This document shows, piece by piece, positions 31,425-49,863 of a DNA stretch of 64,000 nt. The position numbers and the translations under genes are program-made. Below the pieces are notes generated by a model, which ran no database searches, was not told the origin of the DNA, and was given only the letters and a program-made list of their open reading frames with translations. The stretch's first letter is position 1; every line of letters begins with the position of its first letter. This stretch comes from a bacterium (GTDB taxonomy: Bacteria > SZUA-79 > Acidulodesulfobacterales > Acidulodesulfobacteraceae). Location: assembly GCA_021812245.1 (NCBI GenBank), contig JAKAOK010000007.1, positions 1 to 64,000 of the forward strand, read 5' to 3'.

Positions 31425-31443
31425 TAAGCGCAAACTGCGCTCA
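31425..31443 (-). promoter_or_regulatory. Candidate bSECIS hairpin downstream of the precursor UGA (hypothesis)
   Basis: Minus strand UGAGCGCA-GUU-UGCGCUUA (8 bp with one G:U), 12 nt after the UGA at 31458-31456, GU in apical loop, no following U-tract. Confidence 0.35.
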
Positions 31444-31455
31444 TTTGCATTCCTT

Positions 31456-31560
31456 TCAGGAGTAGCACGAATCCTTTAAGCCGTATCCCTCGGTAATTAA
31501 AGCGTAAAATTCTTCCGCGGGGATTTCAAGAAACAGCGGCGCATTATAGATCTTTTTCAT
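31456..31560 (-). CDS. RiPP precursor peptide (34 aa to first UGA; possible Sec extension to the UGA at 31443-31441)
   Basis: MKKIYNAPLFLEIPAEEFYALITEGYGLKDSCYS*; strong SD AAGGAGGTGA 5-6 nt upstream; start overlaps the end of the PqqD-like ORF; next to radical SAM/SPASM gene; shorter than the ORF track cutoff. Confidence 0.75.
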   Translation of the reverse strand: MKKIYNAPLFLEIPAEEFYALITEGYGLKDSCYS

Positions 31561-31840
31561 AAAGCTCACCTCCTTTTTCATTGTCGTTGTCATAAATATA
31601 TTTTTTATCTAAAAGAATGCGCACCAATCCTTCAAAATCCTTTTCCGCCTCCGTTATTGTTGCGTCAAAGCTTTCCGTTATGTTTAATAGTATGTCTTCA
31701 TCCGTATTTTTCCCGTCGCAAAGCGATAAAATTTCATACGATAATTCGTTAAGTTTATAAATATTACCGCTTATATTGTCGAAAAGCATAAAATTCTCTT
31801 CGTCCTGTTTTAAAGATACGGTATCCGCAAGTATTAGCAT
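31544..31840 (-). CDS. PqqD-family RiPP recognition element/peptide chaperone
   Basis: 98 aa; FMLFDNISGNIYKLNELSYEILSLCDGKNTDEDILLNITESFD. Confidence 0.85.
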   Translation of the reverse strand: MLILADTVSLKQDEENFMLFDNISGNIYKLNELSYEILSLCDGKNTDEDILLNITESFDATITEAEKDFEGLVRILLDKKYIYDNDNEKGGELYEKDL

Positions 31841-31901
31841 TTATTTCTCCCGTAATAAACATAATCATATTATATTTATTATATTATATTGTTATATTCG
31901 G

Positions 31902-32921
31902 CTATATCCAGCATTGCGGGTCTTTAGAGTTTAAATCTCTATTATAATAATAGCTTATAGCTTTACACCCCCCGCACTTGTCGGCGTGGCTGCAACCTGC
32001 ACATCCGTTCTCCCCGTTCCTTTTTCTTAACTTCCACAAAATATCGGAGTTGTACCATACCTTAAAGAGTCCGTCGGTTAAAATATTTCCGAGCGGGAGA
32101 TAAAGCCTTCTGCATGGAAGCAGGGCGCCGTCATGCAGTATGCATAGCGACGATAAGCCTGCAGGGCAATATCCGCCGGCATTTTCGTCTATCAGATTCC
32201 ATAGCGGGCGGGATACTGAAAGTTTAGTATTTTTATTTTTAAATTCTGTTTTTGCACTGGCGTAAACATCGAAATAAACGTTTTTTAGGTCGGAAGCTTC
32301 GATGAAAAATTCATCCCTTTCTATATCGCTCATAGCCGTCATTCTTTCCACCGTTAAAGCATCTATGTTTAGCAAGGCGGCGAGTCTCGGCATATTGGAT
32401 GCCGATCCGATATTTTTTTTATGAAGAGTGAACATTACCGCGGTTTTAATTCCGGAATTTTTAAGCATTTTAATAGAATTTATCGTTTTCAAAAATGTTC
32501 CTTCTCCTCTGACGCCGTCATGGGATTCTTCATCATGTCCATCGAGGGAAACTTGAACTTCGGCTAATTTTTTATAATTTTTAATCTTTTTAATCAGTGT
32601 GTTATCGATAAGCGTTCCGTTGGTCAAAATCGCAATATTTTTGAAATTATCCGAGCTTTCAATCATATCCATTAAATAAAAAAGTCCTTCTGGTTTCAAA
32701 AAAGGTTCTCCTCCGGTAAGGGAAACGAAACATTTCATTTTCCATTTTGCCATCGCTTCATCTAATTTCAGAAATATATCCTTTAAAATATTTAAATCTA
32801 AGGTTTTATGATTATAATCGTTTTGATAGCAATGGACACATCTCAGGTTGCATGAGTCTATAAAATGCCATTGCACGTAAAAATCTTTATTTATATTTTT
32901 TTTATCGTTGTATCCGTCCAT
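31902..32921 (-). CDS. Radical SAM/SPASM peptide maturase
   Basis: CNLRCVHC, SLTGGEPFL, and SPASM cysteines CPAGLSSLC...CRR...CAGCSHADKCGGCKA. Confidence 0.93.
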   Translation of the reverse strand: MDGYNDKKNINKDFYVQWHFIDSCNLRCVHCYQNDYNHKTLDLNILKDIFLKLDEAMAKWKMKCFVSLTGGEPFLKPEGLFYLMDMIESSDNFKNIAILTNGTLIDNTLIKKIKNYKKLAEVQVSLDGHDEESHDGVRGEGTFLKTINSIKMLKNSGIKTAVMFTLHKKNIGSASNMPRLAALLNIDALTVERMTAMSDIERDEFFIEASDLKNVYFDVYASAKTEFKNKNTKLSVSRPLWNLIDENAGGYCPAGLSSLCILHDGALLPCRRLYLPLGNILTDGLFKVWYNSDILWKLRKRNGENGCAGCSHADKCGGCKAISYYYNRDLNSKDPQCWI

Positions 32922-43380: not shown

Positions 43381-44823
43381 ATGGAAGATAGCAAAAAACA
43401 AAATATTTTAAGGCGGTTTCCAAGCGTGCAGTCCATTCTTCAGGATAGTGCGGTCGTCAGGCTTGCGGAATCATTTCCCCATGCATTTATCAAAGAAAAA
43501 ATAGAAGAATTAATAAAATCGGAAAAAAGCAAAGCAATTGAATCTTTAAATTCGGAAAATGAATGCACCGTATCGAATAATTTTAATTTTACGGTCGATT
43601 TTTTCGTTAAAAAACTTTTGGACGATTTGAATAATTTTTCTTATAGCCTTAAAAAGGTAGTTAACGGAACGGGGGTCGTTATTCATACAAATTTAGGGCG
43701 TTCTATACTGCCGGAAAGCGCCGTTAAGAACGTCCGTAAGATTTCGTCTTCATATTCCAATTTAGAATTTAATTTGATAGAAGGAAAAAGAGGTAAAAGA
43801 TATTCCCATATAGAGTATCTTCTAAAAAAAATTTTAAAATGCGAAAAGGCGTTAGTAGTAAATAATAATGCTGCTGCGGTGTTTATGGCGCTTTCATCTT
43901 TTTGCGCAGGATCTAAAAAAGAGGTTATCGTTTCGAGAGGCGAACTGGTCGAAATAGGTGGTTCATTCAGAATACCGGATATAATGAAGGCATCGGGGGC
44001 GGAACTTATAGAAGTAGGGACTACTAATAAAACCAAGCCGCAGGATTACGAATCCGCTATAAACGAAAATACAGCGCTATTATTGAAAGTTCATCAAAGC
44101 AATTTCAGGATGAGCGGTTTTGTCAGCGCGCCGTCGAGCAAAGATATAGCCGCAATCGGAAAAAAACATAATATACCCGTTATGGAAGACTTGGGTTCCG
44201 GCAGTTTCGTCGGTATGGAAAAATTCGGATTGCCCTGCGAGCCTACGGCGCAGGAAGTCGTTAACGCAGGCGTGGACATCGTTACGTTCAGCGGAGATAA
44301 GCTCCTTGGAGGACCTCAGGCGGGAATAATAGCCGGAAAAGCCGGATATATCGATATGATCGCTTCAAATCCTTTAAACAGGGCATTTAGAATAGACAAA
44401 ATGACGCTTGCCGCCCTGGAAGCAATTCTATTTGAATATTTAGATATAGAAAGAGCCGTTAAAAATATTCCAACGCTTTTTCTTATAGCCCAAACCGAAA
44501 AGGAAATTAGAAAAAAAGCCGTAAAACTTTTAAATAAGATTAAAAAATTTAAAAATATCGATAAAAATTTATTCGATTTTAAAATAATCGAAGATTTTAG
44601 CATAGTCGGCGGCGGGGCGCTTCCGGATTATGAACTTAAGACTTTTGCTTTGAGAATTGCCCATAAAAAAATAAGCGCGTCAGGACTGGGCAAATTTTTA
44701 CGCGACTGTAATGTGCCGATTATCGGAAAAATAAAAAACGGGGAATACTTGCTTGATATGAGAACGGTATTGGAAGATGATTTTAGCGATATATTAAATG
44801 CCTTTGTATTAATTTCAAAATAA
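43381..44823 (+). CDS. selA: L-seryl-tRNA(Sec) selenium transferase
   Basis: NGTGVVIHTNLGRS, VVNNNAAAVFMAL, FSGDKLLGGPQAGII. Confidence 0.96.
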   Translation: MEDSKKQNILRRFPSVQSILQDSAVVRLAESFPHAFIKEKIEELIKSEKSKAIESLNSENECTVSNNFNFTVDFFVKKLLDDLNNFSYSLKKVVNGTGVVIHTNLGRSILPESAVKNVRKISSSYSNLEFNLIEGKRGKRYSHIEYLLKKILKCEKALVVNNNAAAVFMALSSFCAGSKKEVIVSRGELVEIGGSFRIPDIMKASGAELIEVGTTNKTKPQDYESAINENTALLLKVHQSNFRMSGFVSAPSSKDIAAIGKKHNIPVMEDLGSGSFVGMEKFGLPCEPTAQEVVNAGVDIVTFSGDKLLGGPQAGIIAGKAGYIDMIASNPLNRAFRIDKMTLAALEAILFEYLDIERAVKNIPTLFLIAQTEKEIRKKAVKLLNKIKKFKNIDKNLFDFKIIEDFSIVGGGALPDYELKTFALRIAHKKISASGLGKFLRDCNVPIIGKIKNGEYLLDMRTVLEDDFSDILNAFVLISK

Positions 44824-48807: not shown

Positions 48808-49863
48808 ATGACGTCTAATAAGTACAAACTTACAAACCTGACAAGTGCCCACGGCTGAGGGTGCAAGATAGGTCCGGAGGACCTTTCTAAAATTCTCGAA
48901 AAATTGTCCGTGCCTGAAAACGACAATGTTTTAGTCGGGTTCGGATATAAAGACGATGCAGGCGTTTATAGAATCAACGACGATACATGTCTTATTCAGA
49001 CCGTAGATTTTTTTACTCCGGTCGTGGATGACCCCTATTCTTTCGGTCAGATTGCCGCAGCCAATGCTCTTTCGGATGTTTATGCCATGGGGGGGAAGCC
49101 TTTAACGGCGTTAAATATTGCCTGTTTTCCTATAAACGATATAGAAAAAGAGGTTTTTAATCTTATACTTATGGGCGGATTAGATAAGATTAAAGAAGCT
49201 GGCGCCGCGCTTTTAGGGGGTCATTCAATCGATGATAAAGAAATAAAATACGGTCTTAGCGTTACTGGTATATGCGGCATAGATGAAATTTATTCAAATA
49301 GCGGCGCGGAACAGGGGGATATTCTATATCTAACTAAAAGTCTCGGTACTGGATTTGCCGTAAGCGCCATATGTACGGATTTTCTTAATGAAGATACGCT
49401 GAACGAGGCTACGCTGTCTATGTCGAAGCTAAACAAATATGCTTCCGAATTAGCGGTTTCTTTAATGTCGCCTAATGCCGTAACCGACGTTACCGGGTTC
49501 GGGCTGATAGGGCATCTGAGCGAAATGATGATTGCAAGCGGAACCAGATGTGAAATAGACTTGAATTCCCTTCCCGTTATAAACGGTGTTCCGGAATTGA
49601 TAAAAAAGGGCATTAATCCGGCGGGAACAAAGCGCAACAGAAAATATTTCAGCGAATATACGTCTATGAAAGACGGGCTTGAGGAAAATTTATTATGGAT
49701 AGCTTTTGGGGCGGAAACTTCGGGGGGTTTAATATTTTCGGTTCCGAAAGACAAAGCCTCTGAAACGGAAAAAATATTTAAAATCAAGGGCGAACCTCTT
49801 TATAAGATAGGCAGGGTTTTAGATAAAAGCGTAAAAGACGGCATTTATATAAACATAACATAA
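48808..49863 (+). CDS. selD: Selenide, water dikinase SelD as a selenoprotein (in-frame UGA = Sec at 48856-48858)
   Basis: ATG 48808 reads MTSNKYKLTNLTSAHG-U-GCKIGPEDLSKILEKLSV then continues in frame into the listed ORF ([39 protein letters not shown]-type motifs). Confidence 0.95.
48870..48884 (+). promoter_or_regulatory. Probable bSECIS hairpin of selD
   Basis: AGGTCC-GGA-GGACCT, 6-bp perfect stem beginning 11 nt after the UGA. Confidence 0.65.

Follow-up and report, generated by a model that had tools for sequence, protein, structure and literature searches.

A candidate selenocysteine-containing RiPP precursor encoded beside PqqD-like and radical SAM/SPASM genes in a member of the Acidulodesulfobacteraceae

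RiPPs containing selenocysteine (Sec) were proposed in 2011 by Haft and Basu (cited in the available part of PMC4979651). The closest described system is that of SbtA and SbtM, in which SbtM acts on both Cys- and Sec-containing precursors with the removal of four hydrogens, the Cys product being assigned as a thiooxazole (PMC11002830, available sections). A search of open-licence papers on Sec-containing RiPPs returned only SbtA/SbtM and the 2011 proposal, though others may exist in print. Of such selenium-containing peptides very little is known. Other systems to which the present locus can be related include GeoRSP, of which a Sec precursor is to our knowledge no defining feature, the lasso peptides, whose leaders are resembled by those of the Y-x-x-P type, and the maturases SkfB, SuiB and that of structures 5wgg and 5why, all of which carry a fused RRE. 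The 5wgg/5why enzyme, a thioether maturase, is presumably CteB.

The locus described here was found within the window, the whole stretch of 64,000 nucleotides that was analysed (36.9% GC), which forms contig C35 of a genome of 1.78 Mb that is 87% complete. The minus strand carries a radical SAM/SPASM gene, then a PqqD-like gene and then a small ORF with its start ATG at 31558–31560 (Table 1), with a Pal/OmpA-type gene upstream and a DnaJ-type gene downstream (Pfam). The window neighbours with Pfam matches were Pal/OmpA, a methyltransferase, DnaJ and a MerR_2-like protein. This gene order had been claimed in a preliminary description, and it is borne out by the matches of the maturase to PF04055 (75.5 bits) and PF13186 (28.2 bits), both above cut-offs, and of the PqqD-like protein to PF05402 (43.8 bits, cut-off 23.4). 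The CxxxCxxC motif of the maturase (C24/C28/C31) and its SPASM cysteines C252, C270, C307, C310, C316, C319 and C337 are invariant in 20 aligned relatives. The near-perfect Shine-Dalgarno sequence that had been noted is also present, as AAGGAGGTGA. The overlap reported between the small ORF and the PqqD gene holds for the window, where the ORF begins 17 nt before the PqqD gene ends, but it is a local feature, being found in four of 19 PqqD/precursor pairs measured (the window and three close relatives), while the other 15 show a gap of 16–262 nt. The ORF had been read as ending at 34 aa with its only Cys at the C-terminus. This requires revision, as the TGA at that point is most likely, on comparison with homologues, a Sec codon between two cysteines, with the ORF running to 31441 (39 aa plus stop) and a tail of C-Y-S-U-K-E-C-K.

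Table 1. Coordinates of the features of the window and of related precursor loci in other genomes.
Feature	Position	Strand	Basis
Radical SAM/SPASM maturase, 339 aa	31902-32921	(-)	Pfam/NCBIfam and alignment of relatives
PqqD-like RiPP recognition protein, 98 aa	31544-31840	(-)	PF05402
Shine-Dalgarno AAGGAGGTGA	31566-31575	(-)	5 nt before ATG; read directly
Predicted Sec-containing RiPP precursor, 39 aa, MKKIYNAPLFLEIPAEEFYALITEGYGLKDSCYS-U-KECK, final stop TGA	31441-31560	(-)	Orthologues, TGA/Cys exchange, synonymous change
UGA probably read as selenocysteine, codon 35	31456-31458	(-)	TGA/Cys counts in 36 copies
Putative bacterial SECIS-type hairpin UGAGCGCA-GUU-UGCGCUUA	31425-31443	(-)	Spacing, covariation, neighbour-stop control
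SelA, selenocysteine synthase	43381-44823	(+)	TIGR00474; ORF
SelD, selenophosphate synthetase, in-frame UGA	48808-49863	(+)	TIGR00476; translation; hairpin
All-Cys Y-x-x-P precursors ending WCFGCTNCNCN	L082:5692-5850, L093:7400-7519, L083:7259-7384, L084:7292-7411		
Double-Sec peptide loci	L092:4749, L100:5750-5869, L107:5722-5844, L110:5768, L120:2299-2415		
Double-Sec peptide loci, continued	L125:5828-5950, L126:5846, L127:795-902, L143:1555-1680		

Judged by its conservation, the small ORF is a real gene, far beyond chance. The 34-aa peptide was searched as a single sequence against 61 genomes, namely that of the window plus 60 relatives, of which 29 belong to the same family (f1), and orthologues were recovered at E-values down to 1e-19, with strong matches in f1 only. 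The phylum is probably Candidatus Acidulodesulfobacteriota (GTDB SZUA-79), since no family other than f1 represents it among the genomes analysed and the GC content of the window falls in the range of 28–44% given for that phylum in PMC11382960. A profile of the extended peptide detected the precursor in 27 of the 30 genomes examined from the phylum, the exceptions being G004, G013 and G001, in the last of which the maturase sits at the edge of a contig. A close maturase was present in 22 of the 29 f1 relatives (absent in G002, G004, G012, G013, G019, G026 and G029). At most loci it directly precedes the PqqD gene, for which the loci compared gave a cluster of 24 ORFs, and the precursor. The genes are unlinked in some genomes, several having the precursor between Pal and DnaJ and the maturase elsewhere. 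The Y-x-x-P motif that had been pointed out in the leader (Y5, P8) proved to be well conserved, with Y5 kept in 26/26 and P8 in 25/26 of the copies aligned (26 of the 36 found). Together with orthology and with a maturase that is linked to the ORF in most genomes, this motif backs the original assignment of the ORF as a RiPP precursor accompanying radical SAM/SPASM and PqqD genes. Maturase loci without the ORF, or with an unrelated peptide in its place, had been named as evidence that would count against this assignment, and within the phylum this was not the pattern observed. The Sec precursor is also kept at the syntenic site in G019 (L194, G019:C5), a genome 97% complete which has no close maturase, and in G026 (L159, G026:C22), where the maturase is found in fragments only. 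The peptide may therefore function unmodified; in these two genomes its function may survive loss of the enzyme, or they may represent recent decays.

Some individual loci differ from the general arrangement. In G007, a degraded precursor that is interrupted by a TAA and lacks a stable SECIS-type hairpin adjoins an intact maturase (L181:12060–12167, G007:C88), and an intact copy with its own PqqD lies on a different contig. Genomes of the genera g1 and g2 share near-identical Cys-form precursors (L157:902, L160:3108 and L177:8442); just upstream of each lies an ORF of cluster c18 (DsrE-like in L177), as if precursor and c18 ORF had moved as a cassette. A protein of approximately 750–800 aa with no Pfam match is encoded near the precursor at L194:10628–12934, with homologues in L159, L184, L186 and L192 (genera g5, g6).

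For the analysis of codon 35, precursor copies scoring over 35 bits were collected by profile search of the f1 regions, weaker matches being dropped, which gave 36 copies from 27 genomes. Codon 35 was TGA in 26 of these, TGC in six and TGT in four, with no TAA or TAG, although the copies are related and neither these counts nor those of the hairpin below are independent. The in-frame UGA is thus aligned with Cys in homologues. The stops of 558 neighbouring ORFs, mechanically called, were TAA in 397, TGA in 90 and TAG in 71. Reading through the TGA gives KECK, KSCK or similar in the relatives, 24 of the 25 intact TGA copies having K-[ES]-C-K (the 26th copy, G007:C88, is degraded). Among these 25, the codons past the TGA vary synonymously, with AAG (15) or AAA (9) for the first Lys (R once), TGC (20) or TGT (5) for Cys and AAA (19) or AAG (5) for the last Lys (F once). 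At least one TGA copy was present in 23 genomes; Sec does not appear to be indispensable, since the other four of the 27 hold Cys copies only. A general reassignment of TGA was also considered and put aside, as TGA ends 90 of the 558 neighbouring ORFs and the alternative in homologues is always Cys.

Downstream of the codon, the hairpin UGAGCGCA-GUU-UGCGCUUA begins 12 nt after the UGA, its loop beginning at 20 nt, and has a stem of 8, a loop of GUU, a dG of −9.3 and an MFE of −9.9. These values agree with all of the bSECIS rules set out in the available part of PMC13188914, namely a stem of 4–16 bp, an apical loop of 3–9 nt with G in the first two loop positions, a distance of 16–37 nt from the UGA and an MFE of −7.5 or less. 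A hairpin with a dG of −5 or less was found in 25/26 TGA copies against 2/10 Cys copies, and, as a control, after 1/89 neighbouring TGA stops and 11/555 neighbouring stops of any kind. The TGA copies represent 22 distinct sequences, 21 of which have the hairpin. Covariation was assessed on 19 of the 26, six near-duplicates and the degraded copy being left out. All of the 89 scored cells were paired, with two-sided change in three of six pairs, and the score of 0.216 (shuffled mean 0.126) was reached in none of 500 shuffles and fell to 0.079 or below when the alignment was slid by 1–3 columns. The MFE over 45 nt was −7.5 or less in 18/26 TGA copies, the hairpin of genus g2 being at −7.1. Folding z-scores of the hairpin regions are weak (−1.49 for the window); the case for Sec is built on the hairpin's position, its covariation and its association with TGA, and not on folding energy alone. 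The second TGA of the window (31441–31443) was also considered as a Sec codon and rejected: most relatives have TAA or TAG in this region and it lies 5 nt from the hairpin loop, outside the 16–37 nt rule.

The machinery for Sec is encoded in the same genome, with SelA (TIGR00474, 571.8 bits, cut-off 267.9) and SelD (TIGR00476, 361.9 bits, cut-off 125) in the window and SelB (305.5 bits) and tRNA-Sec (70.5 bits; anticodon tca by ARAGORN) outside it. From the exchange at codon 35, the conserved K-x-C-K, the hairpin and this machinery, the precursor is predicted to read ...KDSCYS-Sec-KECK, and Sec coding of the 39-residue form is, at the level of sequence, strongly supported. Among the relatives, tRNA-Sec was not found above cut-off in G002, G006, G014 and G015, of which the last three carry TGA copies. 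It should also be noted that SelD is itself a selenoprotein, with one TGA inside its ORF (48856–48858, motif HGUGCK) and a hairpin AGGUCC-GGA-GGACCU whose loop lies 17 nt downstream of the UGA; SelA lies approximately 4 kb upstream.

A scan of a genome collection with the maturase alignment gave at least 80 loci, while a scan of viral contigs gave no match. Among the matches listed, the closest maturases outside the phylum (44–47% identity) adjoin related all-Cys peptides with the same Y-x-x-P leader. The loci belong to Hydrogenedens (L082), WOR-3 (L093), Ruminococcus (L083) and Roseburia (L084). The L093 peptide is MKKYEKPMW...EWCFGCTNCNCN, with similar peptides in the other three, that of L082 ending in ...CTNCSCSCY. 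These share with the window peptide a leader of K-x-Y-x-x-P or K-x-Y/Y-x-x-P and the spacing C-x2-C-x2-C, but have the middle Cys where the window peptide has Sec. SelA was found in none of the four genomes with WCFGCTNCNCN peptides, and the three peptides of this type that were scanned matched no NCBIfam model above cut-off. Two of the all-Cys loci come from gut Bacillota MAGs, whose maturases are almost identical. Peptides of a CRQCSxCHGC type occur at L085, L086 and in genome G030 (L168), SelA being present in one of two genomes with CRQC-type peptides; the precursors at L085:7295, L086:4505 and L168:4344 end in CRQCSSCHGCR, CRQCSGCHGCR or CVQCSSCHGCS, with maturases of 36–39% identity.

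A second type of Sec-containing peptide, C-x2-U-x2-U-K, occurs in Nitrospirota, Chloroflexota and Thermodesulfobacteriota, where it immediately precedes a radical SAM/SPASM gene (double-Sec loci, Table 1); the core of L126 (C-x2-C-x2-U-K) is unlike the others. In the eight loci examined (all but L092) a bSECIS-type hairpin lies 16–27 nt from a UGA with a dG of −6.7 to −10.2, and six of the eight genomes have SelA. Among 395 genomes sampled from the L100 phylum, 60 had a match to the double-Sec peptide, 59 with two TGA inside and one with a single TGA, and nine of the ten double-Sec loci listed from this phylum have an ORF with a radical-SAM motif downstream. None of nine double-Sec peptides matched NCBIfam models, and Table 1 of PMC13188914 holds no entry describing a C-x2-U-x2-U-K precursor, its one RiPP-like entry being selenobacteriocin. 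Tentatively, and at somewhat less than an even chance, Sec may have entered radical-SAM RiPP cores at least three times (SbtA, C-x2-U-x2-C and double-Sec), with C-x2-U-x2-(C/U)-K marking an unnamed class of intracellular, enzyme-modified selenopeptides acting as selenium-based cofactors in redox reactions or metal binding.

To place the maturase among known enzymes, it was compared with NCBIfam models, of which TIGR04082 (SbtM) was the best match at 137.5 bits (cut-off 350), covering positions 199–515 only of the 516 in the model. The comparison with GeoRSP-like systems that had been suggested shows that the locus does not belong there, the maturase scoring 127.7 bits against TIGR04303 (cut-off 400) and the PqqD-like protein 18.9 bits against TIGR04302 (cut-off 100). 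The precursor matched no family above cut-off in Pfam or NCBIfam (26 copies in the NCBIfam scan), three of the 26 copies matching NF033528 (lasso_cyano) weakly, with a best E-value of 0.17. In a quick IQ-TREE tree of 92 maturases, with SH-aLRT support only, nine f1 sequences including that of the window formed a clade (100%) which joined the four of the WCFGCTNCNCN loci (97%), while eight SbtM sequences, set on a long branch, grouped by themselves (100%) and nine sequences linked to double-Sec peptides formed a third clade (98%). By this tree the window maturase is sister to the maturases of the all-Cys precursors and distinct from SbtM, which suggests that selenium entered the all-Cys/C-x2-U-x2-C class separately. 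Sampling of 395 genomes from the L085 phylum gave 38 with an SbtM above cut-off. In 14 of the 15 SbtM loci read, SbtA-like precursors were present, all unlike the peptide of the window, being 64–113 aa in length, most with MExKELKKxLAG-like leaders, and having SGUG/SSUSG-type units. The nearest solved structures by sequence were SkfB (78 bits) and 5wgg (58 bits), and the nearest folds SkfB, SuiB and 5why/5wgg, at 16–22% identity over the fold alignments. The structure model is of mediocre quality (mean pLDDT 70.1, with values under 50 in much of the SPASM part), so that the fold search supports assignment to the superfamily only.

Taken as an ordinary stop, the TGA would end a 34-aa precursor in SCYS, and the hairpin would be a terminator or an mRNA-stability element. 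This would agree with an ORF that is complete to the TGA behind a perfect Shine-Dalgarno sequence and with a hairpin just past the coding region. It is nevertheless highly unlikely, given that the ten copies with a Cys codon stay in frame as far as x-x-C, that no copy has TAA or TAG, that the codons past the TGA change synonymously and that the hairpin tracks the TGA state; nor was any T-run seen 3' of the window hairpin when the sequence was read directly. If the TGA is a Sec codon, the peptide might still be a small redox selenoprotein that receives no radical SAM modification, the maturase pair being lineage-limited or a passenger. The peptides of G019 and G026, the genomes which keep the peptide at the Pal–DnaJ site with the maturase elsewhere and the common use of C-x2-U as a redox motif (Table 1 of PMC13188914) are consistent with this. 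It is considered unlikely in view of the close maturase in most family relatives, usually directly before PqqD and precursor, and of the Y-x-x-P leader common to precursors beside sister maturases in other phyla.

Membership of the SbtA/SbtM family (selenobacteriocin, thio(seleno)oxazole) could be argued from the Sec precursor in both and from TIGR04082 being the best NCBIfam match. However, the score is far under cut-off and the match starts well into the model, neither TIGR04081 nor another NCBIfam model was matched above cut-off in the 26 copies, the SbtA-like precursors differ in length, leader and repeated units, and SbtM forms its own clade on a long branch. This membership is disfavoured and its probability is minimal, although the two systems could still share a product chemistry. 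A system of the GeoRSP or lasso type is extremely improbable as well: the leader is lasso-like and a few copies resemble NF033528 weakly, but the GeoRSP models are not reached and no pair of B protease and C cyclase was present among the window neighbours scanned by Pfam.

It is very probable, from the comparative sequence evidence, that the locus makes a Sec-containing RiPP, with UGA-35 read as Sec and the 39-residue precursor modified by the PqqD/maturase pair. The hairpin, together with SelA, SelB, SelD and tRNA-Sec, would direct Sec to codon 35, giving a precursor whose leader is Y-x-x-P...AEEFY and whose core is C-x2-U-x2-C-K. From what is known of these families, PqqD would bind the leader and present the core, whose Sec and/or Cys residues the radical SAM/SPASM enzyme may then modify. 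The chemistry can be guessed to be an oxidative change at Sec/Cys of the selenooxazole/thiooxazole sort or a thioether from Se/S to carbon. A comparison of 39 regions, 38 from f1 and one from G030, showed housekeeping-site genes as the recurring neighbours, and among the neighbours identified no exporter or peptidase was seen near the precursor. With no conserved exporter, peptidase or immunity gene seen and a core that hardly varies, the product is expected to stay in the cell and might perhaps be a redox or metal-binding peptide rather than a secreted bacteriocin.

The product proposed for the locus is a radical-SAM RiPP that contains Sec and stands apart in its leader, its core and the clade of its maturase. 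The locus would then be a second, compact Sec-RiPP system, and, because natural Sec and Cys versions exist in close relatives, the contribution of selenium and the action of the enzyme are directly testable. It also points to a blind spot, in that precursor finders which stop at UGA lose the core, the part likely to be modified. In comparison with the known systems, the locus shares with SbtA/SbtM a radical SAM/SPASM enzyme adjoining a precursor with an in-frame UGA and a SECIS (PMC11002830 and PMC13188914, available parts) and a modified residue that is Sec or Cys (PMC11002830, available part), the modification being a prediction for the window system. It differs in that SbtA bears a different leader and multiple units of the SGUG type, whereas the precursor of the window has one Sec in C-x2-U-x2-C, and in its stand-alone PqqD and a maturase clade apart from SbtM. 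With GeoRSP it has in common the pairing of a radical SAM/SPASM enzyme with a PqqD-like protein, but the proteins of the window score far below the curated cut-offs. Compared with SkfB, SuiB and the 5wgg enzyme, the RRE of the window system is a separate PqqD protein.
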